Source: a virus. Taken from it: a DNA stretch of 64,000 bases. The notes under the pieces are model-generated. The model saw only the letters and a list, made by a program, of their open reading frames with translations. It was not told the DNA's origin and ran no database searches. Each line of letters begins with the position of its first letter. Within the stretch, counting starts at the first letter, position 1. The DNA lies in IMG/VR virus record IMGVR_UViG_3300034356_001766, positions 1-64,000 of that record. One strand, written 5' to 3'. A program made the position numbers and the translations under genes. Of this stretch, positions 13,985 to 45,237 are shown one piece after another.

Positions 13985-13986
13985 CA

Positions 13987-15105: not shown

Positions 15106-15111
15106 ACAACG

Positions 15112-15137
15112 GTGTCGTAGCACCACCTTAAAAACAC
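15112..15137 (+). promoter_or_regulatory. Shared 5'-leader element, copy 2
   Basis: Matches 11222-11247 at 23 of 26 positions. GGTG (15111-15114) and CACC can pair as a small hairpin directly at the predicted transcript start. Precedes folE as the first copy precedes the queD/queE operon. Confidence 0.6.
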
Positions 15138-15145
15138 TAATTAAT

Positions 15146-17863: not shown

Positions 17864-18378
17864 TTAAGAGATTGGCATTAGTAGGGGCTAGCAGTACCGG
17901 TAAAACGACTGTGTATGAGCTGCTTAAGAATCAGCTCCCTAAGTGGGAGTTTGTAAATGAAAGTACCCGGAGGGTAGCTCGGTATGGCTTCCCTATCAAT
18001 GAACTCGGCACTACCGAAACTCAGTTAGCTATCTCAAGCTTTCATCTAGAGGCATTACTCAAACCTTACAACCTGATCTTAGACCGCTGCTACTTAGACT
18101 TAGTAGTTTACTCCCGTCATATGCCCGGACTCTCCCAGTCCGGTCTAGAGTACATAGAAGATACTTGGAAGAGAGTCCAGGATGAATATACCCACTATAT
18201 TTATTTCCCTATCGAGTTCCAGGCGATCGATGACGGAGAAAGAAGTGTTGACGAAGATTGGAGAAAGATCATCGATCAAGAATTTAAATACCAGTTGGAT
18301 CAGACTGACAGGCATTACCTGGCTGTGACCGGCTCACCTATGCAGAGAATAAATCAAATCCTTAAATACATTAAATAA
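17860..18378 (+). CDS. NadR/Ttd14-like P-loop ATPase (AAA_28)
   Basis: 172 residues. Walker A GASSTGKTT at the N-terminus, LILDRCYLDLVVYS as the Walker-B-like/DR-x-x-LD segment, a lid with DGERSVDEDWR. Such proteins include the nicotinamide-riboside kinase domain of NadR. Lies with 4-nt overlaps between the formyltransferase and queF, so it may act on a nucleoside or base of the pathway, or on NAD(P) supply for QueF; unknown. Confidence 0.75.
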   Translation: MIKRLALVGASSTGKTTVYELLKNQLPKWEFVNESTRRVARYGFPINELGTTETQLAISSFHLEALLKPYNLILDRCYLDLVVYSRHMPGLSQSGLEYIEDTWKRVQDEYTHYIYFPIEFQAIDDGERSVDEDWRKIIDQEFKYQLDQTDRHYLAVTGSPMQRINQILKYIK

Positions 18379-19292
18379 TGGACCATAATAAGAACCAAAG
18401 TGCAGTTGTAGAGATTGCAAGCAAACACCTCGGCCAGGTAGGAGGTGCCGGGTACTCCGATCAGTACGATCCTTCGCTGCTGGTTGCGATCCCACGTTAC
18501 CTAAACCGAGAGGCTTACGGCATCAAAGAAGAGAGCCTACCTTTTATAGGAGTGGATGTCTGGAATGCTTACGAAGTCTCGGCGATCACTAAGAAAGGAT
18601 TACCGGTAGCAGGGATGCTTAAGATTGTATGTCCTGCCGACTCACCTTTCCACGTAGAGTCAAAGTCAATCAAGCTTTACCTAAACTCTTTTAACATGAC
18701 TGCTTTCGGTGAGACTGCTAGAGAGTGTATCGAGTTTATCGAAAGTCAGGTCTCTAAAGATCTTACCGACCTCCTGCAAGGAGAGGTGACTTGTAAGTTT
18801 TTTACCAGTAACGATATTCACGAGTATCAGTTTGTAGAGTTTACTCCCCTCGGTGCTTTGGTTGATCTGGATGCAGTAGAGTTTACTTCCTTCCATTCTG
18901 ATGCTACCCAGCTTAAGATCTGGCATACAAAAGAGGATGTAGTAGTTAAGAAGATTGAATCTGATCTACTTAGATCTAATTGCCGGGTGACCAATCAGCC
19001 GGATTGGGGTGATGTTTATATTCATATGATTGGTAAGAACGTTCCTGATGAGGCATCACTGGCCCAGTACATAGTCTCTCACCGCCAGGTATCTCACTTC
19101 CACGAAGAGATTTGTGAGATGATCTTTACCCACCTTACTGAGGCTTATCAGCCTGAAGGTCTGATGGTAGCATGTCTTTACACCCGAAGAGGAGGATTGG
19201 ATATTAACCCTATCCGATCAACGCACGCTAATCTGATCCCGGGCTGGTACAAAGATCCTACCAAGCGGATGAAGAAAACTTTACGACAATAA
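18378..19292 (+). CDS. queF: QueF NADPH-dependent preQ0 reductase, bimodular type
   Basis: Reduces the nitrile of preQ0 to the aminomethyl of preQ1. 304 residues, the long two-module form like E. coli QueF. The substrate/NADPH block FHVESKSIKLYLNSFNMTAF is canonical; the catalytic Cys is in SNCRVTNQPDWGDV together with the proton-relay Asp; SHFHEEICE and RRGGLDINPIRS complete the family. Presence of QueF implies the pathway goes past preQ0, consistent with the formyltransferase. Last gene before the polA promoter. Confidence 0.95.
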   Translation: MDHNKNQSAVVEIASKHLGQVGGAGYSDQYDPSLLVAIPRYLNREAYGIKEESLPFIGVDVWNAYEVSAITKKGLPVAGMLKIVCPADSPFHVESKSIKLYLNSFNMTAFGETARECIEFIESQVSKDLTDLLQGEVTCKFFTSNDIHEYQFVEFTPLGALVDLDAVEFTSFHSDATQLKIWHTKEDVVVKKIESDLLRSNCRVTNQPDWGDVYIHMIGKNVPDEASLAQYIVSHRQVSHFHEEICEMIFTHLTEAYQPEGLMVACLYTRRGGLDINPIRSTHANLIPGWYKDPTKRMKKTLRQ

Positions 19293-29313: not shown

Positions 29314-30822
29314 ATGAAACATTTATTTACCCTTGTAGCTCTTTCAGCAGCTACGTTATTCGGCCAGACCTCTTTCTGGACTTCAACAACTTATAGAGGA
29401 GCATTCGAACCAGCTCCTACCACCCAATGGACTGATAGCTGGACCAATTGGGATCCTCAAAGTACTACCTACCCGATCCACACCCAGACAGTTTCAGGAG
29501 AAATACTTAGTAATCTAACTTGGACAAGCAGCAATGTTTACCTAGTTCAAGGTCCGGTATACTTGAAGAGCTCGCTTACTATCCAACCTGGTACAGTAAT
29601 TCTTTTTGATAAGAACACTGCAGGATCGGCTCTGATTGTAACTAAAGCAGGCACACTCTATGCAGAGGGTACTGCCACTCAACCTATTGTATTTACTTCT
29701 AATGCTGCAGCCGGTCAAAGGAATATAGGTGACTGGGGCGGTATAGTACTTTTAGGTGAGGCAGCTAACAACCTACCTGCTAACGCAACAGCAGGTACTC
29801 CTGCCGGGATCGGTAACATAGAAGGCCTACCTACTTCAGCTAATACTGAATACGGCGGTACTAACGATCAAGATAGTTCAGGTATTCTTAAGTACGTTAG
29901 AATCGAGTTCAGCGGATATGCCTACCAGCCTGATAAAGAGATCAACGGTTTAACATTTGGTTCAGTAGGAAGCAAGACAGTAGTTGAATACGTTCAAGTT
30001 TCGTTTGCTAATGACGATGCCTTTGAATGGTTTGGAGGTACTGTAAATTGCAAGCACTTGGTTTCATACCGCAACCTGGACGACGACATGGATTGCGATT
30101 TTGGCTACAGAGGTAAAGTTCAATTTGCTTTAATTGTTAGAGATCCTTTTATTGCTGATCAGTCATCAGGTTCAACCTCAGAAGGATTTGAATGTGATAA
30201 TGACGGCTCCGGCTCTAACAACGGACCTAAGACAGCTGCTACATTCTCTAACGTAACTGCTATCGGTCCACTAAGAGGTGACCTACAAGCTACAGTCGAT
30301 CCTAAGTTTAGAAGAGCTTTAAGACTCCGCCGGAACAGTGAAATGAAAATCTTCAACTCAGTCTTTACAGACTTTAAAGATGGTATTCATATTGACGGAA
30401 CTTCCACAGAAACAAATGCACTACAGAGTAGGTTAATATTCCAAAATAATCTGATTGCTGGCTGCAGCGGTAAATTCATCCTCAGAGGCACTAATCCTTC
30501 TTTTGATGCCGGTGCCTGGTATTTTACTTCTAATGATACTCTAGCAGTTTCTACTGGATTGTTTACCACTCCCTACAACTACCTACAGCCTGACTATCGC
30601 CCATCAGCTACTAGCGGACTAGACACAGGAGCAAGCTTCACCGACACAAACTTGATCGGTAATACTATCTCAGTTAACGAAGAGCAGTTAGATGTTACTT
30701 ATGAGATTTATGATTGGTACGGTAACTTAGTTTATATTGGGAAACATATACCCTACGACAGACTTAAAGGATTATATGTAATCAAATATAGTGCCAAGCT
30801 AGAAAAAGTATTTGTATACTAA
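29314..30822 (+). CDS. Secreted beta-helix-type protein with T9SS-like C-terminus
   Basis: 502 residues. Signal peptide MKHLFTLVALSAATLFGQ. Central region LTIQPGTVILFDKN...ALIVTKAGTLYAEGTATQPIVFTS...GDWGGIVLLG follows the repeat-like right-handed beta-helix pattern of Bacteroidetes surface proteins. The last ~40 residues (YEIYDWYGNLVYIGKHIPYD, then LKGLYVIKY, with K-V-F-V-Y) resemble a type A Por sorting domain. It should be exported by Sec and then by the host T9SS, and anchored on the surface. Such genes are normally bacterial, so this is unusual in a phage. Confidence 0.75.
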   Translation: MKHLFTLVALSAATLFGQTSFWTSTTYRGAFEPAPTTQWTDSWTNWDPQSTTYPIHTQTVSGEILSNLTWTSSNVYLVQGPVYLKSSLTIQPGTVILFDKNTAGSALIVTKAGTLYAEGTATQPIVFTSNAAAGQRNIGDWGGIVLLGEAANNLPANATAGTPAGIGNIEGLPTSANTEYGGTNDQDSSGILKYVRIEFSGYAYQPDKEINGLTFGSVGSKTVVEYVQVSFANDDAFEWFGGTVNCKHLVSYRNLDDDMDCDFGYRGKVQFALIVRDPFIADQSSGSTSEGFECDNDGSGSNNGPKTAATFSNVTAIGPLRGDLQATVDPKFRRALRLRRNSEMKIFNSVFTDFKDGIHIDGTSTETNALQSRLIFQNNLIAGCSGKFILRGTNPSFDAGAWYFTSNDTLAVSTGLFTTPYNYLQPDYRPSATSGLDTGASFTDTNLIGNTISVNEEQLDVTYEIYDWYGNLVYIGKHIPYDRLKGLYVIKYSAKLEKVFVY

Positions 30823-30823
30823 G

Positions 30824-30854
30824 TTGGGGAACTAAAAGGCTCTTCGTATCTTTA
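30824..30854 (+). promoter_or_regulatory. Promoter TTG-N20-TATCTTTA
   Basis: TTG 30824-30826 (in hairpin AGTT-GGGG-AACT, 30822-30833), TATCTTTA 30847-30854, spacer 20 nt. ATG at 30858 follows after 3 nt: leaderless. Confidence 0.7.
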
Positions 30855-30857
30855 GGT

Positions 30858-31361
30858 ATGGAAGATATGTGCCCGTTTAAGCCCGTTCACTCGGTGGAGT
30901 GGCTGGAGAACTACTTTGCCGAGAACTGCTTTAAGAAGCCCTACGACCGCTTTATGTGGTGGAGGGGATACGTTACTAAGAAGAAGCCTTTGTTCGCTCA
31001 TGCTCACCTCAAGGATAAAGTAATGAACGGGGACTACGACTTACCTCATTACGGGTACGAAGCCGAGCTTGTAGAGCATAAGCTACGTCATGCCTACTTA
31101 ACTAGGAATGATATTACCGGGTTTAACGAAGCTCAGGGTCTGAATATGTCCCGTCGCAAGCGACTGCTCGAAGATCAGATCAAAGAAGATACCAAGCGCC
31201 TGGAAGGACTTTACAAGGACTGTAAAAAGAACTACGGCCTGACTAAGGAGCAGGTCCAGGATGAGATAATGAATCTTGATGGTGATAGCGTTAAGGATCT
31301 TTATTTGATGCTAGAAAAAAAATACGGAAAAAAAACTGTTGCCGTTCCTAAATTTAAATAG
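30858..31361 (+). CDS. Hypothetical protein
   Basis: 167 residues; N-terminal two thirds with Trp-rich CPFKPVHSVEWLENYFAENC, C-terminal half a charged coiled-coil-like helix (RRKRLLEDQIKEDTKRLEGL). Not recognised. Served by its own leaderless promoter. Confidence 0.65.
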   Translation: MEDMCPFKPVHSVEWLENYFAENCFKKPYDRFMWWRGYVTKKKPLFAHAHLKDKVMNGDYDLPHYGYEAELVEHKLRHAYLTRNDITGFNEAQGLNMSRRKRLLEDQIKEDTKRLEGLYKDCKKNYGLTKEQVQDEIMNLDGDSVKDLYLMLEKKYGKKTVAVPKFK

Positions 31362-31411
31362 AGGAAAAGTAAATCCGTATATATTTATATAAAATAAAAA
31401 AAGTAAAAATT

Positions 31412-31714
31412 ATGTTAAAGCGTTTTTGGAATTGGTTATTAGGTAAGACTACTGTTGATGAAAAGATTGTTGAGAAAGTTCAGCAGATCAAAGTAAGAGC
31501 AGAAAGGATTGAAAAAGAGATTGAAGATGTAGTTGTTGCTGTAAAAGAAGTAGGTAAGCAAGCCTCCGATGTCGCTAAAGCTGTGAAGGGTTCACCGAGC
31601 CGCACTCGCAAGCCAGCAGCAAAAAAAAATGCTCCTGCACCGACTGCAACTGCAGTTGAAGCTACTCCTGCTGCCAAGAGAACAGCCTCCAACGGTCGCA
31701 AATCTAGCAAGTAG
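31412..31714 (+). CDS. Helical protein with basic Lys/Ala/Pro-rich tail
   Basis: 100 residues: N-terminal amphipathic helix/coiled coil (~1-58, VEKVQQIKVRAERIEKEIED) and a Ser/Lys/Arg/Pro/Ala tail (SRTRKPAAKKNAPAPT...KRTASNGRKSSK) like the tails of histone-H1-like proteins. Could bind DNA or RNA. Ends at the GTG of the next gene (one-base overlap). Confidence 0.6.
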   Translation: MLKRFWNWLLGKTTVDEKIVEKVQQIKVRAERIEKEIEDVVVAVKEVGKQASDVAKAVKGSPSRTRKPAAKKNAPAPTATAVEATPAAKRTASNGRKSSK

Positions 31715-31956
31715 TGAATCCTAACTTGAACGTAAGCCTGGATCAGACCCTCCCTGTTGAGTGTGAGGAGTGCGGTGGGCTTTACTTTGAACAGGCTCTT
31801 CACATCCGAAAGGTATCTGGCTTGTTAACAGGGACTGGACAGACCTCATACCTTCCGATCCCGGTCTTTGCATGTAAGGCTTGCGGACACGTTAACACGG
31901 AATTTTTACCTAAAGAGTTAAAAGATTTGCCGGGTGATCAAGACAGTACAAATTAG
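31714..31956 (+). CDS. Zinc-ribbon phage protein
   Basis: 80 residues with a GTG start overlapping the previous TAG. C-x2-C at CEECGG and CKACGH enclose a beta sheet (QALHIRKVSGLLTGTG...YLPIPVFAC). I recall similar small zinc-ribbon proteins in T4-like marine phages; function unknown. Confidence 0.65.
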   Translation: MNPNLNVSLDQTLPVECEECGGLYFEQALHIRKVSGLLTGTGQTSYLPIPVFACKACGHVNTEFLPKELKDLPGDQDSTN

Positions 31957-32038
31957 AGTTCAGTTCAACGAACCGATCTGGATGTATGATGGACTTCAAG
32001 AGTCTATCTACGATGATTTTACGGACGAAGAAGAGTAA
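31934..32038 (+). CDS. Possible small acidic protein, 34 residues
   Basis: GTG start 23 nt inside the zinc-ribbon gene; product MIKTVQIRVQFNEPIWMYDG with an acidic end. Followed by a terminator. Weak support. Confidence 0.4.
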   Translation: MIKTVQIRVQFNEPIWMYDGLQESIYDDFTDEEE

Positions 32039-32063
32039 CTAAAAAGTTAACTTTTCTTTAGGG

Positions 32064-32083
32064 AGGGACTTCAGGTCCCTTTT
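32064..32083 (+). terminator. Rho-independent terminator
   Basis: AGGGAC-TTCAG-GTCCCT (32064-32080) followed by TTT. Separates the small-gene operon from the large surface-protein gene at 32157. Confidence 0.75.
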
Positions 32084-32156
32084 CCTGTTTCTATTTATTA
32101 AGGAATTGTTATTAGTAATTGTTGTTTAAAAGACAAAATATAATTAATAACTTTCT

Positions 32157-34091
32157 ATGAAAAGAATTTTTGTAGCCCTCGCTATACTAATAGGAGCAAC
32201 AGCCCAGGCCCAGAACGGTGCCAACGAAATACTGCCAGCCCCTAACTCCGCCACCCCTTTTATACTTGTTGACACTCTGTTTACTCTGAGTAACTATCCA
32301 GCCACTTACACTGACGTGTACATCCACTTTGCCAACCCGACTGCAAGTCCGGTTAAAGCTGTTCAGTTTAGATTGTACTACGACAATACTAAATTCTCTG
32401 GAGCGACGATGTTCTGGGGTCCAACAGCACAGCCCATCGCCGATAAGTACGGATCTTACTTCGATGTAAATGCTAGCGGGTATCTCAACATAGTAGCGAC
32501 CTACACCGGTACCAACACCACCTATGACTGGAATGACGGTGCGATGTTTAAATTAAGACTTACTCACGGTGCAAACTACAAAGGAGTTGTTACTCCTGTA
32601 GTTACTACCGGAGCCGGATCCTATACCAGTCTAGCGACAGTAGGCAACGGAACGGACGTAGCTCTTACCCTATTTAACTACGGAGGAGCATTCCAAATGA
32701 CACCTCTCACCTTCCCTATCAGGGTTAAAAACCCAGATCTATCTCCTGCACAGGGTGTCTGGTTTTCAGCAGCAAAGAGACTTAAGTCAACTCCTCAAGC
32801 TACTTGGCAGTCCATCGCTTCTGATTCTACCAACGGAAGCGGTCTAGTACAGTTCACCCATCCTGTTGATACCAACTACTGGCATCTTAAGATTTCTTCC
32901 CGTATTGATACGATGTCAGACGGAGGCGCTATCTCCATAACCGATGCTTACAAATTAGCCAACCACGTCACCGGTCAGGACACTCTTGCAGGTACCGAAT
33001 GGTATGCTGGTGATATCAATGAATCAGGAACAGTAACTATCTCTGATGGCTTCTCAGTATTCAGTAGACTAGCTCTACAAAGCACTACCTGGAGCGGATT
33101 GTTTACAGGAGTCAACAACGTTGCAATGCAATGGCCTAATAGTTTTGCAACAGCTCAATCAGCAGTAGCAGCTCCCAACTGGGGTACCAATCCTAGAATG
33201 TATAGCATCGATACAATCGTTAACAGACTAGACTCAATCAACCCTTACATCTATGTGATCGGTGATGCTACTACAACCGGGTACAACAACCCCGCTACTA
33301 TCCTTGCCAAGAAAGATCCAACCGGGAACGGAACTACCCAATACATCTTAGACCCAGGAGTCTATCTTTCAAACAAGTTAGACACAGTTCAGTTTAGGTT
33401 CCCTAAGTTAGTACTATCGGTTGACAACTTCGTTGACGTACCGGTTACCATGTACACCTTCGGCAATAAGATCGGAGCAGCTCAGATGGGCTTTGAATAC
33501 GACACCAACATCTTTGAATTTACTTCCATAGAAGCAGGACCAGTAGCTGCTAAATGGACTAGCCTGATCAGTGTTGAGAAGGGAAGAGTGTTCTGGGCCG
33601 GTCACGAAGACAAGCTGAACCCAGGAGTGCTAGAGGCGATGAGTAATGCTTTCACTTTCAGATTCAGAGTTAAATCAATCCTAGGATGGACTTCTACTCC
33701 GATCAGAATCTTTGATAAGGCAGCCGGTAACGAAAAAGCAGTTGACCTATCGGTTAAGCCTTCTCCTAACGATGGATCGATCATCAACGGAAGAGCTGCT
33801 CTAGACCCTGCCACATTAGAGAAGATGTACGGCTTTTATGTCTACCCTAACCCGATTACAGAACTTACCAACGGATGGGCTATAGCTGAATTCTATACCG
33901 AAGACAAGCAGCCCCTCACCATAGTAGTTGCTAACATGCAGGGACAGATTCTGAAAGCTGAAAAAATAGAAGAGACTGATTTAGGTTTCCAAGTTAAAGG
34001 AATCTATATGGGTGACCTGCCCAGAGGAACTTACTTCGTAAGAATGGTTATGAACGATAGAGATAAAGTTTACAAAATAATTAAATACTAA
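32157..34091 (+). CDS. Secreted cohesin/dockerin-like protein with T9SS sorting domain
   Basis: 644 residues. Signal peptide MKRIFVALAILIGATAQA. Cohesin-like beta domains: residues ~30-170 (VYIHFANPTASPVKAVQFRLYYD) and ~410-520 (IGAAQMGFEYDTNIFEF...RVFWAGH). Between them a dockerin-like duplicate: ISITDAYKLANHVTG and GDINESGTVTISDGFSVFSR (~255-300). The C-terminus FYVYPNPI...IVVANMQGQILKAEKI...GDLPRGTYFVRMVMNDRDKV is a clear Por/T9SS sorting domain. It should be exported to the cell surface by host T9SS. Architecture is typical of Bacteroidetes adhesins, not of phages. Length is normal for such proteins. Confidence 0.82.
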   Translation: MKRIFVALAILIGATAQAQNGANEILPAPNSATPFILVDTLFTLSNYPATYTDVYIHFANPTASPVKAVQFRLYYDNTKFSGATMFWGPTAQPIADKYGSYFDVNASGYLNIVATYTGTNTTYDWNDGAMFKLRLTHGANYKGVVTPVVTTGAGSYTSLATVGNGTDVALTLFNYGGAFQMTPLTFPIRVKNPDLSPAQGVWFSAAKRLKSTPQATWQSIASDSTNGSGLVQFTHPVDTNYWHLKISSRIDTMSDGGAISITDAYKLANHVTGQDTLAGTEWYAGDINESGTVTISDGFSVFSRLALQSTTWSGLFTGVNNVAMQWPNSFATAQSAVAAPNWGTNPRMYSIDTIVNRLDSINPYIYVIGDATTTGYNNPATILAKKDPTGNGTTQYILDPGVYLSNKLDTVQFRFPKLVLSVDNFVDVPVTMYTFGNKIGAAQMGFEYDTNIFEFTSIEAGPVAAKWTSLISVEKGRVFWAGHEDKLNPGVLEAMSNAFTFRFRVKSILGWTSTPIRIFDKAAGNEKAVDLSVKPSPNDGSIINGRAALDPATLEKMYGFYVYPNPITELTNGWAIAEFYTEDKQPLTIVVANMQGQILKAEKIEETDLGFQVKGIYMGDLPRGTYFVRMVMNDRDKVYKIIKY

Positions 34092-34097
34092 AATGTC

Positions 34098-34487
34098 ATG
34101 AGTGAAGAGCAAGAAGGCGGAATGTCCGGAGTAAAGAAAACAATCTTAGGAGTCCTAGGAACAGCCGTTACCGGGATAGGTATCTGGGCTTCTACCCAGA
34201 TCAATACCATCCTAGGTATAGAAGAAGAAGGAGCAGCTACTGAACAGGTAGCTCCTGTAGAGCAGTCTAACAATCAGAGCGTTAACGTCTCCGGTCCTGC
34301 TATTACTATTAATGTACCTGATCAGCAGCCTGCCAGAACCAATACTGTCATCAGAGAGACTGTCAGAGAGGTACCCGCTGCCCAGCCAGCTCCAGCTGCA
34401 GCTCCTACAGAAGAGAAGAAAGAAACTCCTCAAGAGAGGATGGCTCGTCTCAAGAAGCAAAAAGAAGATCAAAACGCCGGAAAGTAA
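34098..34487 (+). CDS. Membrane protein with Pro/Ala-rich stalk
   Basis: 129 residues. One transmembrane segment (about 13-33), then Gln/Asn/Val (SNNQSVNVSGPAITINVP) and a Pro/Ala- and Lys/Glu-rich tail. Lies between the T9SS protein and the CsgG-like gene with its stop overlapping the next start. Might be a scaffold for the CsgG-like protein; unknown. Confidence 0.6.
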   Translation: MSEEQEGGMSGVKKTILGVLGTAVTGIGIWASTQINTILGIEEEGAATEQVAPVEQSNNQSVNVSGPAITINVPDQQPARTNTVIRETVREVPAAQPAPAAAPTEEKKETPQERMARLKKQKEDQNAGK

Positions 34488-35227
34488 TGAGAACTAGAAT
34501 GGATGCTATCCTGGAGATCATTTTCGCTCCTCTAGGAATATTAGTAGTAATAGGCGGTATGGTACTTGTAGGTACACTAGCTACGTCTTGCAAATCCTCG
34601 ATTGGGGTGCAGCAGTACCAGGCCGAGTTTGAGAAAGCAGAACCTTTAAACTCTCTACCAGCTTTTGCAGGTGAGAGACAGATCGTTCAACTATCTAAGC
34701 TTAATGTCAATAAGGAGTTATGGGATATGTTCCCTGAGCTTAGAGACAAAAGAGTCGGGATGGGAGTATCAAATAGAATAATTGAGAACTTCGAACAGAC
34801 AGGTCGCTTTAGCTACGCTGAAGAGAAGGAAGCAATACAGACTCAGATGCTAGATGCGTGGGAGACTGAATTAAATGGACTTAGCAATGGTAAAACTAAG
34901 CTCTCAATGGAGGGTATAGCTTTGCCAAAATACATCGTCTATGCTGAAATTTATGACTTCTCTGTATCTTATACTGAAACCTACGATAAGGGAAAGACCA
35001 ATAAGACTAACACCACCATCGTTGGCATTCAGATCAGGATGGTGAACGTTGATAACTCCCAGTACATAGTTGCTTCCGGTCAAGGGACTTCAACTCAGGT
35101 AGGAGAAGGCTTCTTTAAGAACCCTCAAATGGGCTTTGACGGCTCAACAGTAGGTGTTGCTACACAACGTGCGCTAGAGGTTGCGACAGTAAACCTTGTC
35201 AAGCGGATGGAAACTTATGGATGGTAG
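34487..35227 (+). CDS. CsgG-like lipoprotein
   Basis: 246 residues. Long N-terminal segment ending in a lipobox (GTLATSC, ~residues 29-35), then a domain resembling CsgG/HfaB: RQIVQLSKLNV, VGMGVSNRIIENFEQTGRFS (locus corresponding to the family's conserved start of the periplasmic alpha/beta domain), IVGIQIRMVNVDNSQYIV, GSTVGVATQRALEVATVNLV. CsgG forms the outer-membrane pore that exports curli subunits. The ~246 residues are close to CsgG length (277 in E. coli). A pore role for this one is inferred, supported by a Gly/Ser-rich secreted-type protein directly downstream. Confidence 0.72.
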   Translation: MRTRMDAILEIIFAPLGILVVIGGMVLVGTLATSCKSSIGVQQYQAEFEKAEPLNSLPAFAGERQIVQLSKLNVNKELWDMFPELRDKRVGMGVSNRIIENFEQTGRFSYAEEKEAIQTQMLDAWETELNGLSNGKTKLSMEGIALPKYIVYAEIYDFSVSYTETYDKGKTNKTNTTIVGIQIRMVNVDNSQYIVASGQGTSTQVGEGFFKNPQMGFDGSTVGVATQRALEVATVNLVKRMETYGW

Positions 35228-36764
35228 ATGGAGAATAGTCTTAATTTTTCTTCTTACAGGGTTTAAAGGGTTTAGTCAGTATATTTACAACTACACCGAC
35301 CCGTGTACGGGGACGTTAAACTCTATTACTATCTCACAGCCCTCCGGGTCTGTAACTCTTTTTTATGCCGGGCAATATCAGACCTTCACAGCTACCCAGT
35401 TACAGTCTGGAGCCTTCGAGTTATGGGTACAGGGCATTAATGCAGCTGCTCCTGCTGGAAGCAACCCCTGCGCTGGAAATGGGGGTTCTATCGCCACTGG
35501 ATCAAATGCTGCTATTGGAACTAATACGGTCAATAACGTATCAGGCATAGTCGGTATTGCAGCCAACATTGGCGGGAGCATAGGATCTTCCTCTATCCCG
35601 GGTGGAGGCATGGCCGGAAGCGGTAACTCTAATTCTAATTCAAATGACAATGGTACGAATTCTTCTGGTAGCGGTTCTAGTGGTTCTGGGAATGGTGGTG
35701 GTGGTGCTGGGACTGGCTCCGGTGGTTCCGGATCAGGCTCTACAGGTAGCGGAGGGAGCACTGGGGGGAGTGGCGGTAGCGGTAGTACTGGCGGCGGCGG
35801 CTCTGGCTCGGGTTCTGGGGGAGGTTCCGGAGGAGGTTCAGGAACTGGAGGCTCTGGTTCTTCAGGCGGCTCAGGCTCAGGCGGTTCAGGATCGGGTGGT
35901 TCGGGATCAGGTCAACCTTCCTCCGGTCAGGGTGAAGGCGGCGGAGGATCTATTCCATCTTCGGGCGGTGGCGGCTCAACAGAAGGCGGTGGTGCAGATG
36001 CAGGAGCAGTCGGGGGACAAGAAAATACAACCTCAGCATCAGGTGGTGAATCCGAAAGTTCATCCAGTGGTGGTGGAGGCGGTAAAGGAGGTGGCGGTGG
36101 CCAAAAACAAAAAAGCAGGCAAGAAAAAGTAGGTAGAGGAGCTCTCATAGGCTCCGGTGACTTTGTCGCTATTAGGAACTCCGGCAACATCAGGGACACG
36201 GGTCAGGATAATTTTAGGTTCAACTCCTCCATTACTCACGTCAATACCAAGCAAAACTTTATCAAAGGAGTTAATCTGAATTACACTACCGGTGAGAATG
36301 TTCTGAATACTACTCTATACGGTTCCTACAAACATAAAGGGTTTATGGGGGTATTCTCTAATTCGGTGATGAGTAACTTTAAGACCGATTGGTTCAATAC
36401 AGTCACTGCTCTAACAGCTCAAAAAGCAGGTCCTGTAACGATGATGGCAGGGACTAACTTTACGGCCGGGCAGCTGGGGAAGAGCTGGTTCCAGAACTGG
36501 TCTCTGATTGGAGGAGGGTTCACGAACTTTAAAGGAGGCAGGACGGTAAGCGGTAACTTAATGATGCTGGGGGTCTACTCTCCTTACATTTTCTACTACC
36601 AAGGTCAGTGGTATAGTTCAGGAGTGCTGCTGGTACCTCTCGCTAATCTTGACTTTAAACTAACAGATAAATTTAAATGGAGTATATCTTTCTCAGGAGC
36701 TTACCAGTGGAATGCAGAAATACTTAACTACCAGATATCAACAGGAACAAAAATGTTATTATGA
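35217..36764 (+). CDS. Gly/Ser-rich surface protein with barrel-like C-terminal domain
   Basis: 515 residues from the ATG at 35217 (TTG at 35196 possible). Signal peptide RIVLIFLLTGFKGFSQ. Residues ~25-130 beta-like, ~130-300 almost only Gly and Ser with few Asn/Gln, then a basic hinge (QKQKSRQEK) and ~210 residues of alternating hydrophobic/polar strands (FRFNSSITHV, LNTTLYGSYKHKG, WSISFSGAYQWNAE) like an outer-membrane barrel. Overlaps the CsgG-like gene by 11 nt, so it may be its client or partner. Confidence 0.65.
   Translation: MDGRWRIVLIFLLTGFKGFSQYIYNYTDPCTGTLNSITISQPSGSVTLFYAGQYQTFTATQLQSGAFELWVQGINAAAPAGSNPCAGNGGSIATGSNAAIGTNTVNNVSGIVGIAANIGGSIGSSSIPGGGMAGSGNSNSNSNDNGTNSSGSGSSGSGNGGGGAGTGSGGSGSGSTGSGGSTGGSGGSGSTGGGGSGSGSGGGSGGGSGTGGSGSSGGSGSGGSGSGGSGSGQPSSGQGEGGGGSIPSSGGGGSTEGGGADAGAVGGQENTTSASGGESESSSSGGGGGKGGGGGQKQKSRQEKVGRGALIGSGDFVAIRNSGNIRDTGQDNFRFNSSITHVNTKQNFIKGVNLNYTTGENVLNTTLYGSYKHKGFMGVFSNSVMSNFKTDWFNTVTALTAQKAGPVTMMAGTNFTAGQLGKSWFQNWSLIGGGFTNFKGGRTVSGNLMMLGVYSPYIFYYQGQWYSSGVLLVPLANLDFKLTDKFKWSISFSGAYQWNAEILNYQISTGTKMLL
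35612..36108 (+). repeat. GGT/TCN low-complexity tract coding poly-Gly/Ser
   Basis: About 500 bp of GGn and TCn/AGn codons. All three + strand frames and the minus frames stay open over long stretches here, which creates long artefact ORFs (Pro-rich in minus, Val-rich in +). Only the frame read as Gly/Ser is bounded by a signal peptide and a domain. Confidence 0.8.
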
Positions 36765-37573
36765 AAAACTTAGTACTACTAGCTCTACTACCTTTAAACA
36801 TATTAGCTCAGACTTCCGAGAATACTCAGACTATATCCGATGTTACTTCAATACAGTATATTGATTTTGACAACGATGTTATGAGTAGCTCCAACGTATC
36901 GGTTGGGTACCTGGGTGATATGAGAATATTGAGTTACAACCTAACCTATGAATGGGGCAAAGAGAATGTAACAAATGGAATATTTGCATCCAATACTCCT
37001 TTCTTTAAGTACACCAAAGTAGGGTACAGTCATAGTAGGTCTAAAACTCTTAAGAATATAGATAGAACAACCTCATACGGAGTGACGGTATCAGCATTTG
37101 CCGATCATTCGGCTATAGCAATAAGCCCTTATTTTAATCAGATTTACGAGTTTAAGAATAATACCAAACTTGGATATACGTTGTTTATTAGAGATAATAC
37201 CCATGATGATTTTTATTTGTTTGAAGAATTTTATCCGGCCGCATCCTATACAAAGTACAGTGGGATGTTTATAGCAATGAAAGAATTTGAATATAAAAGA
37301 TTTGTATTGGGACCTGAATTATTTTTACTATCTTCTATAAGGACTCACTATTTTAATTTAGATGACTTTGAAGGCGCATTAGATATTTGGTATTGGAATG
37401 ATTTTAACCTTAATGCATACTACGGCTCTTCGATAAAATATAAACTGACTGACAAATTTATGTTCGGTGCTAAACTCAGAAGCTGTTACGCCCACACTCC
37501 TTCAGACAAAACTCTTGGATTTCGTAAGGCAACTCCCTATATACTTTCAATAGGATGTAACTATGATTTCTAA
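36761..37573 (+). CDS. Outer-membrane beta-barrel-type protein
   Basis: 270 residues, signal peptide MKNLVLLALLPLNILA, then about 14 alternating strands rich in Tyr/Phe with short turns (VGYLGDMRILSYNLTYEW, FKYTKVGYSHS, NTKLGYTLFIR) and a C-terminal Phe preceded by alternating residues (YILSIGCNYDF), the typical signal for outer-membrane insertion. ATGA overlap with the gene before. Confidence 0.72.
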   Translation: MKNLVLLALLPLNILAQTSENTQTISDVTSIQYIDFDNDVMSSSNVSVGYLGDMRILSYNLTYEWGKENVTNGIFASNTPFFKYTKVGYSHSRSKTLKNIDRTTSYGVTVSAFADHSAIAISPYFNQIYEFKNNTKLGYTLFIRDNTHDDFYLFEEFYPAASYTKYSGMFIAMKEFEYKRFVLGPELFLLSSIRTHYFNLDDFEGALDIWYWNDFNLNAYYGSSIKYKLTDKFMFGAKLRSCYAHTPSDKTLGFRKATPYILSIGCNYDF

Positions 37574-38744
37574 ATTAAACATAATACTCCTGTTAATTCT
37601 ACCTCTATCTCTGATAGGGCAGACAATCACCCTGACTCCAATTGGAACTCAGGACGTTAGTGGTATACCGGTTACGGTTGAGCACTACACTGCTGGAGGC
37701 TTAAGCGGTACCGTTCAATCCCAGACAGCTTATATACCAGCTAACAGAGGAACCGGAAGTACTACAATTTTTAGTAGTGCTAATGCGGATGAAGCTTCTG
37801 CTGCTATAACATTCCCATCTGGCTTCACCCCTACTATAGGTACAACAACCTACACCCAGGGACACGTTAATGCTAACTCTTGGTTTGGATTTGGGACTAC
37901 AAGCAGTTCAGGCTACCAAGGTAGTGCAACCAACCCGAACGTTCCTACTATCCACATAACTTCAGTTGATAACGGATCCTCAGACAATAACATGTCTAAG
38001 GTTTCAACTGAAACTTACACTGATGGAACTTGGGGGGATGTGTTTAGGGTTAGGTATGAGGGGAACTGCCAGTACAGTCAATCAGGAGTAAATGTGATAT
38101 GGGACTTATACTTTGTAAAAACTCAACCTACAGTCTTTTACGTAGTGATGCGCGCATTCACTGCTGACGGTTCCAACCAAGAACAGATGGGCATTTCAAG
38201 CGGTGCTGCATGGCTGGGTGTGAATTATATCACGACTACAAGTTATGCAGCCGGTACTGCTTTTAGCTTTACATCTTCTTCAAACCAAGGAAGCTGGTCT
38301 ACAATATCAACTCAGAATACAAACGCAACTGGACAGGTAGTAGTTTCTAATCCCACCAATAAGCAGTACAAGGTTACAATCAACACCTCTCAGAAGTTTC
38401 ACCCTATTACTGACTTCAGTCTTATCTACATGATGTTTATAAAAGGTAATTTAGGTCCGTTACAGGACTGGGACTTTTACACTTGTGACTGTAATAACTC
38501 AGCTACCTTTGACTGGGAGGATATAAATTTCTGCTATGCCTTATTAAAGTCAAACTCCCTCCATAACAAGTATATCTTTACTCAGGCAGAAAAAACTACC
38601 ATTGAGGCTAATCCTAACACTAATTATTATAACACATACTCCCCTACCCAGGTACGTACTATTGAGAATCAAAATCAATTCTACATAATGGGCACAGGAA
38701 TACATAACGCCACACAACCAACTAACGCAGGTAAACTCCAATGA
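37563..38744 (+). CDS. Secreted Thr/Ser-rich protein
   Basis: 393 residues with signal peptide MISKLNIILLLILPLSLIGQ. Mature part rich in Thr, Ser, Asn and Gly with Gln/Tyr, beta-sheet like; late Cys pair in YTCDCNNSATFDWEDINF. No family recognised. Overlaps both neighbours, so part of the surface operon 34098-39163. Confidence 0.62.
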   Translation: MISKLNIILLLILPLSLIGQTITLTPIGTQDVSGIPVTVEHYTAGGLSGTVQSQTAYIPANRGTGSTTIFSSANADEASAAITFPSGFTPTIGTTTYTQGHVNANSWFGFGTTSSSGYQGSATNPNVPTIHITSVDNGSSDNNMSKVSTETYTDGTWGDVFRVRYEGNCQYSQSGVNVIWDLYFVKTQPTVFYVVMRAFTADGSNQEQMGISSGAAWLGVNYITTTSYAAGTAFSFTSSSNQGSWSTISTQNTNATGQVVVSNPTNKQYKVTINTSQKFHPITDFSLIYMMFIKGNLGPLQDWDFYTCDCNNSATFDWEDINFCYALLKSNSLHNKYIFTQAEKTTIEANPNTNYYNTYSPTQVRTIENQNQFYIMGTGIHNATQPTNAGKLQ

Positions 38745-39163
38745 TCAATCCAATCCTTGCCATGTGCTTCTACGTAGCTAGCGTAACTTCGAATGCTAAC
38801 CTAGCCGGTATCGACAATCAGAAATTTACTTTCGGGCTAAGGCAGATCACCGAGGACGTTCTCAATGAAAGAGGCAATCCTTTGTGCGACCAAAGCGATC
38901 AAAATGCTAGTCCGGTTTACGTTACGGTGACTGAAATTAAAGCACCTACTCAAGGTATCAGAGTAGGACCTTTTGAGTTTAAGCAAAAGAAAACAATCGT
39001 TGAAGTAGACATCGCAATAGGTTCATCGGTATACCACGGAGTAGGTAGAGCCAATACAAACGTTGCTGCTACGCTAATGCAGCTCCAGGATGAGACTCTA
39101 GCATTCGAAAGAACAGAATTTTCAGTAGCTGTTAAAAAAGCTATCGTTGACGCCCTAAAGTAG
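38741..39163 (+). CDS. Exported small protein at the end of the CsgG-like cluster
   Basis: 140 residues, weak signal-like start (MINPILAMCFYVASVTSNA), alternating strands VYVTVTEIK and VEVDIAIGSSVYHGVGRA and a C-terminal helix. The strand-helix pattern resembles small periplasmic partners of CsgG-like or LptE-like proteins, without a firm match. Confidence 0.55.
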   Translation: MINPILAMCFYVASVTSNANLAGIDNQKFTFGLRQITEDVLNERGNPLCDQSDQNASPVYVTVTEIKAPTQGIRVGPFEFKQKKTIVEVDIAIGSSVYHGVGRANTNVAATLMQLQDETLAFERTEFSVAVKKAIVDALK

Positions 39164-39240
39164 GTCTATTTATATCAAAGGGTTGCCGTAAATTGTTTTC
39201 TTAATTAGTTCTACAAGTTTAACTTTTTAAATAAAAATTT

Positions 39241-39483
39241 ATGGGATTTTTTGATATGTTCAAAGATAAAAACGACCTAAACGAAAAGACAATCGTTGGG
39301 TTTTTATCATTCACAGTAATGGCTATCTTTGCAGGAGCCGACATAGTAACAGGTATTTTAGGCAATCACCTAATAATCAGCGATACAATCTTCAATTCAT
39401 TTGTAATGATTACGCTAGGTGCATTTGGTATTGCAGAGGCAGGAAAGATTTTCGGAGGAAAGAAAGAAGAGAATAACGATTAA
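39241..39483 (+). CDS. Putative holin, two transmembrane segments
   Basis: 80 residues: GFLSFTVMAIFAGADIVTGIL and TIFNSFVMITLGAFGIAEAG are hydrophobic, ends are charged (KKEENND). Position directly before the endolysin and size suit a class II holin. Twin candidate at 40105, so which makes the lethal hole is open. Confidence 0.65.
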   Translation: MGFFDMFKDKNDLNEKTIVGFLSFTVMAIFAGADIVTGILGNHLIISDTIFNSFVMITLGAFGIAEAGKIFGGKKEENND

Positions 39484-39493
39484 AAATTAGATT

Positions 39494-40105
39494 ATGAGCT
39501 TAAAAAGTTTACAAGAGAAGATGGGTATAGCTGCTGACGGCGCTTTTGGTCCCGGAACAATGAAGAAGGCAATGGAGTTTTATAAGTTGACTCCAGTGAG
39601 AGCAGCTCACTTCTTCGCTCAAACAGCCCACGAAACAGGAGGCTTCAAAGCATTCTCAGAGAACCTAAACTACTCCGCCCAAGGCCTGCAAGGTATCTTT
39701 GGCAAGTACTTCCCCGGTAACCTCGAAGAGTCTTACGCCCGCCAGCCTGAAAAGATTGCAAACCGAGTCTACGCCGACAGGATGGGCAACGGAGCTGAAG
39801 CATCAGGAGACGGATACAAGTTCAGAGGCAGAGGAGCTCTGCAGTTGACTGGTAAAGCCAACTATGAAGCATTTGCAAAGTACTTAGGCAATGACGAGGT
39901 CTTGACTAACCCTGATACGGTTGCAACTAAGTATGCTTTCGAATCAGCTATGTTTTTCTTTGAAAGAAATAAACTATGGACTATCTGTGATAAGGGCATC
40001 AACGATGCAGCTATCCTAGAGCTCACCAAGCGCATCAACGGCGGTACTCACGGACTTGAAGACAGAAATGCCAAGACTAAGAAGTACTTCGAGTACGTAA
40101 AGTAA
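39494..40105 (+). CDS. GH19-type endolysin (chitinase-like muramidase)
   Basis: 203 residues. AHFFAQTAHETGGFKAFSEN has the catalytic Glu (HETGG); YKFRGRGALQLTGKANYEAF is the GH19 signature. N-terminal ~25 residues (MGIAADGAFGPGTMKKAMEF) look like a half peptidoglycan-binding repeat. Degrades host peptidoglycan at lysis; no signal peptide, so it needs a holin. TAATG overlap with the following holin gene. Confidence 0.93.
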   Translation: MSLKSLQEKMGIAADGAFGPGTMKKAMEFYKLTPVRAAHFFAQTAHETGGFKAFSENLNYSAQGLQGIFGKYFPGNLEESYARQPEKIANRVYADRMGNGAEASGDGYKFRGRGALQLTGKANYEAFAKYLGNDEVLTNPDTVATKYAFESAMFFFERNKLWTICDKGINDAAILELTKRINGGTHGLEDRNAKTKKYFEYVK

Positions 40106-40521
40106 TGAAACAAACTGCCATCTTTCTTTCCATCACCACTTCTCTTTCATTCGGCTGCTCTTATTTTCTAGAGCTGACAATGGGTAATTTTGAGCAGTAT
40201 CTTGCTCTGATTGCTGTAGTGTTTGTGGATGGGTTCTTCGGTATTATAGCCGGGATCAAGAGAGAGGGCTTCAAGACCTTTAAGGCTGTGAAGGTGCTGC
40301 AAAGAGCAATAACCTGGGTGGTGCTGCTGACTGTGATACTGATGGTAGAGAAAGGATTTGCAGGTACCAGTTGGTTATCTGAAACCATTATCGTACCTTT
40401 CATACTTCTACAGCTTATAAGTGCTCTTAAGAATGCTTCGATGTCAGGCTACATTCACATAGGAGATCTAAATAAGATCTTAGATCGAATAGATCCTCAC
40501 AAAGGAGAAAGAAAAGAATAA
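40105..40521 (+). CDS. Phage holin family protein (Phage_holin_4-like)
   Basis: 138 residues, three to four hydrophobic segments. AVVFVDGFFGIIAGIKREGFKTFKAVKVL is the family hallmark (D-G-x-x-GI-x-AG-x-K...F...K). Follows the endolysin immediately, so the cassette is holin candidate, endolysin, holin. Confidence 0.82.
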   Translation: MKQTAIFLSITTSLSFGCSYFLELTMGNFEQYLALIAVVFVDGFFGIIAGIKREGFKTFKAVKVLQRAITWVVLLTVILMVEKGFAGTSWLSETIIVPFILLQLISALKNASMSGYIHIGDLNKILDRIDPHKGERKE

Positions 40522-40534
40522 AAAGTTTAAAGAG

Positions 40535-40558
40535 CCCTTGTATCCCAAGGGTTTTTTT
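40535..40558 (+). terminator. Terminator after the lysis cassette
   Basis: CCCTTG (40535-40540), loop TATCC, CAAGGG (40546-40551), then seven T. Its 5' arm contains the -33 TTG of the next promoter. Confidence 0.75.
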
Positions 40559-41911: not shown

Positions 41912-42094
41912 ATGGACAACAAAAAGCTGACAAGCGTCAAAGTAGAGCAGCAGTTATTCGATGAGTTTAAAGTTCAATGCGTACGCTATAAATTTTCATT
42001 CCAAAAGTTGGCAGATAGAGCGATCTTTTTCTATCTTACGGATGATACGTTTAGAAACAAAGTACATAATCAGAACGATTTAAACATAAAATAA
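41912..42094 (+). CDS. Ribbon-helix-helix-like small protein
   Basis: 60 residues. KLTSVKVEQQLFDEFKVQCV then FQKLADRAIFFYL fits an RHH/Arc-type strand-helix-helix. Candidate transcription regulator at the border of the glycan locus. TATTTATA at 41881 precedes it. The stop overlaps the next gene's ATG. Confidence 0.62.
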   Translation: MDNKKLTSVKVEQQLFDEFKVQCVRYKFSFQKLADRAIFFYLTDDTFRNKVHNQNDLNIK

Positions 42095-43539
42095 TGCAAG
42101 ACAAATTTGGTTATATTGAGCAGAAAGATCGAAAGAAGATTCTTCTGCTATGTGATGATATAAGGCTGCACTCCGGAGTCGCTACTATGGCGAGAGAGAT
42201 TGTAGTAGGTACCTCCCACCACTTTAACTGGGTGAATCTAGGAGGTGCGATGAAGCACCCTGACGAGAAGAAAGCTTTCGACCTCTCTGACGACGTTAAC
42301 AAGCAGAATGGAATCCAAGATTCTAGTGTTAAGCTTTATGCAACATCCGGTTACGGGACAGCTGACATAGTCAGGGAACTTATCAGGACTGAGAAGCCAG
42401 ATGCAATACTGCACTTCACCGATCCTAGGTACTGGACTTGGTTGTATGATATCGAAAGAGAGATCAGGCAGCAAATTCCTTTGCTGTACTTGAATATCTG
42501 GGACGATTATCCGGCTCCGTTATACAATAAGGCTTACTACGAGTGCTGTGACTTGCTGATGGGAATCTCTAAGCAGACTACCAACATCAATAAGCTTGTA
42601 TTAGAAGAAGCTGCCGGTAAGAAAATTATTGAATATGTTCCTCACGGCATCAATCAAAAGCATTTCTTCCCTATTACTTCCGAGTATAAGAACTTTGATA
42701 AGTATCAGGAGTTCAAAAAGACTATCTTTGAAGGCAAAGAGATCGACTATGTAGTGTTCTGGAACTCCAGGAACATTAGACGAAAGTCACCCGGTGATGT
42801 TATACTAGCCTATAGAAACTTTTGTGATAAGATCGGTGTTGAGAAAGCAAAGAGATGTGCTCTTATAATGCATACCCAGCCCGTGGACGAAAATGGAACT
42901 GATCTATATGCCGTAAGAGAGGCTGTATGCGACTCATCATACGTGAATGTATTCTTCTCTCAGGAAAGACTTGGTACCGAATCAATGAACTGGCTTTATA
43001 ACCTAGCCGACGTCACTGTGTTAATCTCTTCTAACGAAGGTTGGGGTTTAAGTCTGACTGAATCTATGATGGCCGGGACTATGATCATCGGTAATGTTAC
43101 CGGTGGGATGCAAGATCAGATGAGGTTTGTTGATGACAAAGGTGAATGGTATACTCCTTCATTTGAAGTACCTTCCAATCATATGGGAACTTATAAGGAG
43201 CATGGTGAGTGGGTAATACCGGTCTTCCCTTCTAACATCTCTCTAGTAGGTTCAGTTCCGACTCCCTACATCTTCGATGATAGATGCGACTTTAGAGACG
43301 TTACGGATGCTATCTTAAAAACCTACCAGATGTCAAGTCAGGAGAGGCAGAGCAGAGGAGCAGCCGGCCGGGAGTGGGTCCTATCAGAAGAATCAATGAT
43401 GTCAGCTGATAACATGGGTAGAAATATTATCAAGTACATTGATAAGACCTTCCAGGAGTTTACACCCCGGACCAGCTACGATATCATTAAGGTAAAGGAT
43501 GTAGAAAAAAAATATGTTAAACACCCAATAGTCTACTAA
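42094..43539 (+). CDS. Glycosyltransferase, GT-B (GT4-like)
   Basis: 481 residues. LLLCDDIRLHSGVATMAREI is the N-terminal acceptor-side start; the C-terminal half has VFWNSRNIRRKSPGDVI, VSSNEGWGLSLTESMMAGTMII, the E-x7-E type of retaining GT4. First enzyme of the glycan locus, overlaps the next GT by one base. Confidence 0.82.
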   Translation: MQDKFGYIEQKDRKKILLLCDDIRLHSGVATMAREIVVGTSHHFNWVNLGGAMKHPDEKKAFDLSDDVNKQNGIQDSSVKLYATSGYGTADIVRELIRTEKPDAILHFTDPRYWTWLYDIEREIRQQIPLLYLNIWDDYPAPLYNKAYYECCDLLMGISKQTTNINKLVLEEAAGKKIIEYVPHGINQKHFFPITSEYKNFDKYQEFKKTIFEGKEIDYVVFWNSRNIRRKSPGDVILAYRNFCDKIGVEKAKRCALIMHTQPVDENGTDLYAVREAVCDSSYVNVFFSQERLGTESMNWLYNLADVTVLISSNEGWGLSLTESMMAGTMIIGNVTGGMQDQMRFVDDKGEWYTPSFEVPSNHMGTYKEHGEWVIPVFPSNISLVGSVPTPYIFDDRCDFRDVTDAILKTYQMSSQERQSRGAAGREWVLSEESMMSADNMGRNIIKYIDKTFQEFTPRTSYDIIKVKDVEKKYVKHPIVY

Positions 43540-44807
43540 TGGATAAAATTTCAGTTATAGTTAGCTGCCCGATCGATACTTACAGCGGTTACGGTGGACG
43601 GTCAAGAGATCTTGTTAAGGCTCTTCTTAAATCAGGCAAGTACGACGTTAAGATTTTAAGCCAGCGCTGGGGCAGTACTCGGTTTGGATATCTCAAAGAG
43701 CATTCCGAGCATGAGCTTGCTTCCCTTATTATACCTTCGATCACAAGTCGACCTAACCTCTGGATTCAAATTACAGTACCTAACGAATTCCAGGCAGTAG
43801 GAGAGTACAACATCGGCATTACGGCCGGTATTGAAACCACTGTTTGTGATCCTAGCTGGATTGAAGGTTTGAATAGGATGAACCTTAACCTAGTATCATC
43901 CCAGCATTCGAAAGAAACCTTCTTACGCTCTCAGTTTAACGTTGAAGAGAACGGCAAGGTCAAAAGGCAGATTAAACTTGAAAAACCTATGGAGGTATTA
44001 TTTGAAGGAGCTGATCTTACAAAGTATCTTCCGGGCACTTCAAAGTTTAACCTCGAAGGTATTGAGGAGGAATTCGCTTACCTATTTGTTGGACACTGGC
44101 TGCAAGGTAACGTAGGTCAAGACAGAAAGAATGTAGGGTATATGGTTAAAATTTTCTTAGAAGTATTTAAGAATAAGAAGAAGCAACCTGCTCTAATTCT
44201 AAAGACTCAGTCAGCTAATGCTTCTATCCTTGATAGGGATCAGCTGCTGAAGAAGATCGATGCTATAAGAAAGACCGTTAAAGGTTCACTACCCAACATC
44301 TATATAATTCATGGGGAGATGTCTGATCAGGAGATTAACCATCTCTACAATCACCCTAAAGTAAAAGCTATGATTAGCTTCACCAAAGGAGAAGGCTTTG
44401 GAAGGCCTCTGCTAGAGTTTAGTTTAGTAAACAAACCTATCATTGCCTGCAACTGGTCCGGTCATATTGACTTCCTGGATAAGGAATTCTGCTACCTAGT
44501 CAACGGAACCTTAACTAATGTTGATAAGAGTGCTGCAGTAGATAAAATGCTTTTAAAAGAATCTCAATGGTTTACCCCTAACGATTCCGAAGCAGCTACC
44601 GCTCTTCGCCTTGTCTTTGAAGACTATAAAAAGTATGCAGAGCTAGCAAAGAGACAGGGATATAAGTCTCGTACAAACTTTAGCTGGGAGAAGATGGCAG
44701 AGCAATTAGATACAATTCTAACAGCTAATCTCCCCACCTTCACCAAGCAGATAGAGCTCAAACTTCCTACCTTAAATCTTCCTAAATTACAAAAAATAAA
44801 TGGATAA
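43539..44807 (+). CDS. Glycosyltransferase, GT-B
   Basis: 422 residues. ISVIVSCPIDTYSGYGGRSRDL start, EYNIGITAGIET, FTKGEGFGRPLLEFSLVNKPII (EGFG-x-P-x-x-E motif of GT4), NWSGHIDFL. Probably adds a sugar in the same pathway as its neighbour. Confidence 0.82.
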   Translation: MDKISVIVSCPIDTYSGYGGRSRDLVKALLKSGKYDVKILSQRWGSTRFGYLKEHSEHELASLIIPSITSRPNLWIQITVPNEFQAVGEYNIGITAGIETTVCDPSWIEGLNRMNLNLVSSQHSKETFLRSQFNVEENGKVKRQIKLEKPMEVLFEGADLTKYLPGTSKFNLEGIEEEFAYLFVGHWLQGNVGQDRKNVGYMVKIFLEVFKNKKKQPALILKTQSANASILDRDQLLKKIDAIRKTVKGSLPNIYIIHGEMSDQEINHLYNHPKVKAMISFTKGEGFGRPLLEFSLVNKPIIACNWSGHIDFLDKEFCYLVNGTLTNVDKSAAVDKMLLKESQWFTPNDSEAATALRLVFEDYKKYAELAKRQGYKSRTNFSWEKMAEQLDTILTANLPTFTKQIELKLPTLNLPKLQKING

Positions 44808-45237
44808 GTTAACCGATTGCAAGAGATGCGGCTCCAATGCCTGCTACGAACAGCACGTCACCGACAAGCTAACGACGTGGCTATGTATGGGGTGCGGGTT
44901 TACAACCTCAACAGTTATGACTGAAGGCAGTCAAGCTACTACGAATGCTTTAGAATCTTCTCCAGAGCTCTACAAAGACCTCCTTCATAAGGACCAGGAC
45001 GGGAATATCTGGATGCCTGCTACGGTGACGTTGCCGGGCAGAGGGATGGTTTTCATAGACGGAACTACTAAGGAGAACTGGGTATGGACTGCTGTTAAGG
45101 CTGTTGAGATCCTAAAAGAGGAGCAGCACAAGTACCCTGAAGGTCAGACCCACAAAATGGATATGAAAGGAGCCCGGAACTTCAAGCAAAGAGACTTCAT
45201 GGATGCTCTAGAGGTAATTGAGTTTTACGCAATGTAA
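44800..45237 (+). CDS. Zinc-ribbon conserved phage protein
   Basis: 145 residues. CKRCGSNACY...CMGCGF is a zinc ribbon; the second half is alpha/beta (MVFIDGTTKENWVWTAVKAV). Not a sugar enzyme; I recall similar proteins in T4-like phages. Overlaps neighbours by 8 and 1 nt. Confidence 0.62.
   Translation: MDKLTDCKRCGSNACYEQHVTDKLTTWLCMGCGFTTSTVMTEGSQATTNALESSPELYKDLLHKDQDGNIWMPATVTLPGRGMVFIDGTTKENWVWTAVKAVEILKEEQHKYPEGQTHKMDMKGARNFKQRDFMDALEVIEFYAM

Follow-up and report, generated by a model that had tools for sequence, protein, structure and literature searches.

Can a bacteriophage place proteins of its own on the surface of the infected cell by means of the host's type IX secretion system (T9SS), and what would such a display serve? 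This question is raised by a locus in a 64,000-nucleotide window, i.e. the whole stretch of DNA that was analysed, of the IMG/VR record IMGVR_UViG_3300034356_001766 (a linear contig of 64.7 kb). A sequence-only reading of the window had proposed that two large proteins encoded there, starting at 32157 and 29314, are exported in this way; proteins are designated here by the first nucleotide of their genes. The DNA is from a genuine phage, and its genes include those for ribonucleotide reductase, DNA polymerase A, GroEL, thymidylate synthase and endolysins. The nearest cultured phage is Flavobacterium phage vB_FspM_immuto (hereafter immuto; Immutovirus, 160 kb, host Flavobacterium sp. LMO8), with amino acid identities of 72% for DNA polymerase and 67% for GroEL. 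We found that the 32157 protein is a well-supported T9SS cargo and that its gene opens a conserved operon which continues into the lysis genes.

The 32157 protein (32157..34091, 644 aa; all genes, domains and stems of the operon, as well as the 29314 gene, lie on the plus strand) begins with a Sec signal peptide which can be read directly from the sequence, MKRIFVALAILIGATAQA^Q. An Ig/cohesin-like N-terminal part, a dockerin-like module, a cohesin and a T9SS type A C-terminal sorting domain (CTD) follow. The CTD (aa 562-643, 33840..34085) scored 32.3 bits with TIGR04183 (NCBI cut-off 23; E 7e-8), which confirms the Por/T9SS sorting domain that had been suspected at this end. With PF18962, the whole protein gave 26.8 bits, just below the cut-off of 27, and 31.2 bits, above it, in the genome search. 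The ratio of nonsynonymous to synonymous substitution rates (dN/dS) of the CTD against an orthologue at 83% was 0.063, i.e. the domain is under purifying selection. The P-x-P motif was present in the CTD of all 58 distinct scaffolds, as we call this protein family, and a crude score detected a hydrophobic N-terminal start in 93% of 75 scaffolds.

A homologous gene above the T9SS cut-off was found in 49/50 related phage records, namely immuto and 48/49 IMG/VR contigs; the sole failing record is a 9-kb fragment in which the scaffold gene was not found. The records usually contain a single open frame with a T9SS domain, about 630-670 aa long (245 aa in immuto). By contrast, 10 phage isolates from other Bacteroidetes hosts lacked the domain. 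Since T9SS CTDs otherwise occur in bacteria, an assembly chimera, which the sequence-only reading had named as a possible refutation, or a degenerating host gene picked up by a phage had to be considered. This explanation is contradicted by the data, because immuto (the scaffold is present in four deposited genomes of the cultured phage) and all the IMG/VR contigs would need an identical misassembly. Moreover, one contig (L008/L024), the DNA of which is 94-97% identical to the window across most of the region, encodes a terminase, which is likewise present in most further long records examined (15/19 records), and the low dN/dS speaks against decay. The chimera was therefore rejected, and we regard this origin as next to impossible. 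The domain, its conservation, the purifying selection and its presence in a cultured Flavobacterium phage together make the use of the host T9SS by the 32157 protein as a type A cargo well supported.

The cohesin (about aa 411-550, 33387..33806) scored 40.3 bits with PF00963 (cut-off 24.1), and profile comparison showed its resemblance to scaffolding proteins of solved structure (1g1k, 2vn5). Upstream of it lies a dockerin-like EF-hand loop, DINESGTVTISDG (aa 286-298, 33012..33050), which scored 14.7 bits with PF00404 (cut-off 22.9). This loop is shared with the variable exported proteins encoded further downstream in the operon, which we call tips: it occurred in 52/58 distinct scaffolds and 30/62 distinct tips, as compared to 1/433 other open reading frames (ORFs) and 2/1240 shuffles. 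In immuto, the scaffold is split into two adjacent genes (29% identity to the window scaffold), gp014 encoding the portion through the loop-bearing module and gp015 encoding a signal peptide of its own, the cohesin and the CTD. Because the loop is common to scaffold and tips and the immuto scaffold is split, we propose that the cohesin may hold the tips through the dockerin-like module. The AlphaFold2 (AF2) model of the 644-aa scaffold, for which the alignment consisted of six close sequences, was poor, with a predicted local distance difference test (pLDDT) value of 35.

A profile search of IMG/VR with the 34487 protein, which is encoded two genes downstream of the scaffold, provided 318 related stretches, and the best 80 loci were studied. 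The genes follow one another in a conserved sequence, namely scaffold, 34098 family, 34487 family, 35196 family, an optional barrel gene, one or more variable exported genes and the 38741 family. In the window, the operon spans 32157-40521 with the scaffold gene first; the genes from 32157 to 39163 overlap or almost touch each other, and short gaps lead on to a holin-like gene, an endolysin gene and a holin gene. The earlier account, in which a T9SS protein was correctly recognized, had overlooked this operon altogether. Apart from the 34098 family, 89-100% of the module proteins have signal-peptide-like starts, in comparison with 32% of other ORFs. The module proteins of the window and immuto are about 29-39% identical, whereas the core replication proteins are about 70% identical; this faster divergence fits rapid evolution at a host-facing surface. 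Weak terminator-like stems flank the operon (32061..32083 upstream and 40529..40557 downstream), such stems being no commoner in the sequence than in shuffles, and a promoter scan, which gave fewer candidates than shuffled sequences, was uninformative.

The tip slot is the part of the operon which is exchanged among phages. The tip of the window (37563..38744, 393 aa) carries the dockerin-like loop close to its C-terminus, the loops of the tips being 67-77 residues from the end. Among 59 tip proteins surveyed, 18 contained Lectin_C, 17 PA14, 6 GEVED, 2 Ig_7 and 2 Laminin_G_3 domains, and the sugar-binding motifs EPN and WND were kept in 19/62 tips. An exchange was found in locus L023, whose DNA matches the window with 94.4% identity over 29373-37632 and 97.0% identity over 38741-40523; between these blocks the locus encodes a C-type lectin in place of the window tip, and the exchange begins past the signal peptide and stops at the gene end. 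Conversely, the scaffold of L051 (L011) is 65% identical to that of the window, yet its tip is 95.5% identical. A diversity-generating retroelement was rejected as the source of the tip variation, as PF00078 was found in 0/21 records, several of which are fragments.

The 34487 protein (34487..35227) is a predicted outer-membrane lipoprotein with a CsgG fold. Its AF2 model, which was built from IMG/VR loci only, had a mean pLDDT of 63.5, and the top structural matches were all CsgG (Foldseek E 8e-8; VIA Z 14.0, root-mean-square deviation 3.5 over 161 residues). PF03783 gave nothing above its cut-off for this family in 32 records (best 13.4 bits, cut-off 20.8). Since the Pfam, PDB-sequence and hhalign tests were negative or borderline, only the fold predicted by the model is claimed and membership of the CsgG family is not demonstrated. 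A cysteine follows the hydrophobic start in most 34487 homologues but is missing in immuto gp017. Of the two membrane hairpins expected in a nonameric pore of the CsgG type, the second appears shorter on inspection, and the protein might form either such a pore or a PelC-like ring without one. The product of 38741..39163 (140 aa) is a remote relative of the 34487 protein. Its iterated profile also picks up many 34487 homologues and one Ignavibacteriales protein matches both, while the hhalign comparison of the two gives weak support when taken alone.

Two further genes of the module encode proteins which look like outer-membrane barrels on inspection. The product of 35196..36764 (true start, judged by homology, probably 35217) is an exported protein which, according to an alignment of six homologues, has a short N-terminal domain, a long Gly/Ser linker and a barrel-like C-terminal part. 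The optional gene 36761..37573, present in 13 loci, encodes a predicted barrel. The small 34098 protein (34098..34487) has an N-terminal hydrophobic stretch, the rest being rich in Pro and Ala; no family match was found for it, its position is conserved in 78 loci, and its gene overlaps the following one by 1 base.

The lysis genes adjoin the module directly. The gene 39241..39483 encodes an 80-aa membrane protein which is holin-like on inspection and gave no Pfam match. It is followed by the gene for a GH19-like endolysin (39494..40105; PF00182 36.2 bits, cut-off 25.5; phrog_181 E 5e-62) and by that for a holin of the Phage_holin_4_1 family (40105..40521; PF05105 29.9 bits, cut-off 22.2). A gene of an endolysin family was located within 2 kb of 62/82 modules. 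A second lysis-type enzyme, a glucosaminidase (PF01832), is encoded at 2916-3473, far from the main lysis genes.

The second protein of the sequence-only reading fared differently. The 29314 protein (29314..30822, 502 aa) is an accessory protein encoded outside the conserved operon. Its signal peptide is visible by inspection, but no T9SS model matched it, and its CTD-like end is shorter and lacks a PNP motif. A homologue in L016/L026 has 92% amino acid identity up to residue 456 and ends in a tail of the form YPNP...LPKGVY, which scored 16.5-18.2 bits, below both T9SS cut-offs. The similarity of the DNA ends abruptly after residue 456, and we therefore conclude that the tail of the 29314 protein was exchanged. 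Thus, the search of both C-termini with PF18962 and TIGR04183 was positive for the 32157 protein and negative for the 29314 protein; export of two proteins through the host machinery is well supported for the former and not established for the latter. Directly after the 29314 homologue gene, L026 encodes a type B T9SS cargo (1879-3480; CHU_C 71.6 bits). Type B domains above the cut-off were found in 8/40 related IMG/VR phage records searched, but not in the window. In the 635-kb uncultured metagenomic phage LR745206, there were three type A matches, two of them above the cut-off, and four type B matches, with type B domains above the cut-off there too.

How might these products act together? 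According to the domain content and the established biology of T9SS, the 32157 protein would cross to the periplasm through Sec, and the host T9SS would recognize the type A CTD, move the protein to the cell surface and anchor it there. The exposed cohesin would bind exported tips via the dockerin-like module, and the tips, whose C-type lectin, PA14 and further binding domains are swapped among phages, would give the cell a coat which often binds glycans and can be changed. The outer-membrane part would consist of the barrel proteins, the CsgG-fold lipoprotein and the small relative of the latter, and might provide the tips with a way out. Late in infection, the coat would occupy or mask the host surface glycans, so that rivals would be kept out and progeny would not stick to the dying cell and its debris. 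The purposes suggested before for the exported proteins, i.e. blocking co-infection, aggregating cells or altering adhesion, are all plausible; the most likely use seems to be that receptors are masked, which would keep rivals off and save progeny from being lost to debris.

The reading which we prefer is that the operon serves the exterior of the infected cell, is packed together with the lysis genes and directs an exchangeable, often glycan-binding surface complex there via the host T9SS; we assign it a probability of roughly 0.45. A more elaborate version, in which the phage builds a cellulosome-like surface organelle with a T9SS-anchored cohesin scaffold, lectin-type partners delivered through its own CsgG-fold channel, dockerin-like docking, coupling to lysis and an exchanged specificity cassette, is doubtful. 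Several observations weigh against the preferred reading. The tips as a rule have no CTD with which to cross the outer membrane; the tip of the window itself has no recognized domain; the dockerin-like loop is below the Pfam cut-off and single, where type I dockerins require two repeats. The window phage can be assigned a putative host only. Finally, the placement beside the endolysin and holin genes fits a role in lysis too. In favour of the preferred reading, the SprA translocon was found in the Flavobacterium, Bacteroidetes and Ignavibacteriales metagenome-assembled genomes (MAGs) of loci L106, L107 and L105, respectively.

The main rival is accordingly a module for outer-membrane lysis and egress, in which the CsgG-fold lipoprotein, the small membrane protein and the barrels act when infection ends, by making the envelope permeable or by spanning it, and the scaffold and tips are accessory. 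The lysis genes which come directly after the module, and the endolysin-family genes near most of its other copies, are as this explanation would have them. The lipoprotein gene and the gene for the 34098 protein, which resembles an inner-membrane protein, overlap in a layout known from spanin pairs, and a lysis role was proposed for the CsgG of phage Melnitz (PMC9004378). However, the 34098 protein gave no significant spanin-type match, the immuto endolysin gene is about 6 kb distant from the module, and a T9SS-anchored scaffold with exchanged lectin and PA14 domains would remain unexplained; on balance we hold this explanation to be rather unlikely. It is less probable still that displayed lectins attach infected cells to particles or to adjacent cells, whereby progeny would reach new hosts ('sibling capture'). 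The adhesive domains in the tip slot agree with such aggregation, which was already proposed for the curli of pelagiphages (PMC7029224, PMC9599517) and of a T4-like marine Bacteroidetes virus (PMC7198788), but no amyloid subunit was identified in the module, and expression near the lysis genes, if it is late as we suppose, would leave little time to aggregate. That the scaffold and tips are instead virion parts such as tail adhesins, with an incidental likeness to a CTD, is very improbable: C-type lectin and PA14 folds are generally known in phage tail proteins, but nearly all copies here carry signal peptides, the CTD is conserved under selection, and the neighbouring genes are those for lysis and nucleotide metabolism, not tail genes.

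A bacterial origin of the module was also considered and rejected, since a genome scan gave four matches, three of which (L106-L108) lie on contigs with phage genes. These three phage contigs carry parts of the module, and binning had placed them in bacterial MAGs; one of these MAGs, assigned to Sphingomonadaceae, lacks SprA. The fourth match, an Ignavibacteriales contig, has a pair of CsgG-like genes and no scaffold match. In this contig (L105:9977-16016), the two adjacent genes, which are related to the phage 34487/38741 pair, are followed by genes for proteins of 825 aa and 720 aa, and the set is possibly a bacterial relative of the outer-membrane part of the module. Elsewhere in the window, QueC-like and QueE-like genes and two GTP cyclohydrolase genes (10244-19292) constitute a 7-deazaguanine pathway; as in immuto, it might serve to modify DNA. 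A long glycosyltransferase-rich block with an aminotransferase gene (42094-59009) may remodel the sugars of the host surface jointly with the module.

Phage T9SS cargo and phage CsgG have each been described before. Three type A T9SS cargo genes (endoglucanase, GH39 and PA14), variable among variants, were reported for Cryophage, with export by the host T9SS and a role in superinfection exclusion or competition suggested (Bellas et al. 2020, PMC7468147), and T9SS domains occur near BACON genes in crAss-like contigs (PMC6949934). In contrast to the variable accessory cargo of Cryophage, the present module has one scaffold, conserved across the phage group, whose operon also contains the CsgG-fold, barrel, tip and lysis genes; what varies here is a separate exported gene. 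The curli (type VIII secretion system) clusters of HTVC008M and other pelagiphages (PMC7029224, PMC9599517), of Melnitz (PMC9004378) and of the T4-like marine Bacteroidetes virus (PMC7198788) are likewise conserved, encode exported proteins and include a phage gene for an outer-membrane lipoprotein with the CsgG fold. The module described here differs from them in that no sequence-level CsgG match, CsgF or curlin was identified and in its T9SS scaffold, lectin and PA14 tips and adjoining lysis genes.

A cohesin scaffold and partners with an EF-hand-type loop are reminiscent of cellulosomes; here, by contrast, the dockerin-like loop is single and sub-threshold, anchoring would occur by T9SS, no cellulase partners were seen and the interaction is putative. 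The receptor-blocking outer-membrane lipoprotein Llp of phage T5 guards against superinfection and against loss of progeny to debris. The similarity to Llp would be one of proposed action only, as the present system would be a T9SS-anchored multi-protein assembly and no sequence relation is expected. No description of a combined, swappable and lysis-linked T9SS/CsgG module was found in the open-access papers searched, and relative to these the combination appears to be new.

If the preferred reading is true, remodelling of the host's outer surface via a bacterial secretion machine is a conserved function in a widespread group of Bacteroidetes phages, rather than a matter of occasional cargo. 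The module would then unite two types of isolated reports, those of phage T9SS cargo and those of phage CsgG, tie surface display to the lysis genes and offer a natural example of a system whose binding part can be exchanged. The cultured pair of immuto and Flavobacterium sp. LMO8 makes the role of phage curli-type and T9SS genes directly testable.

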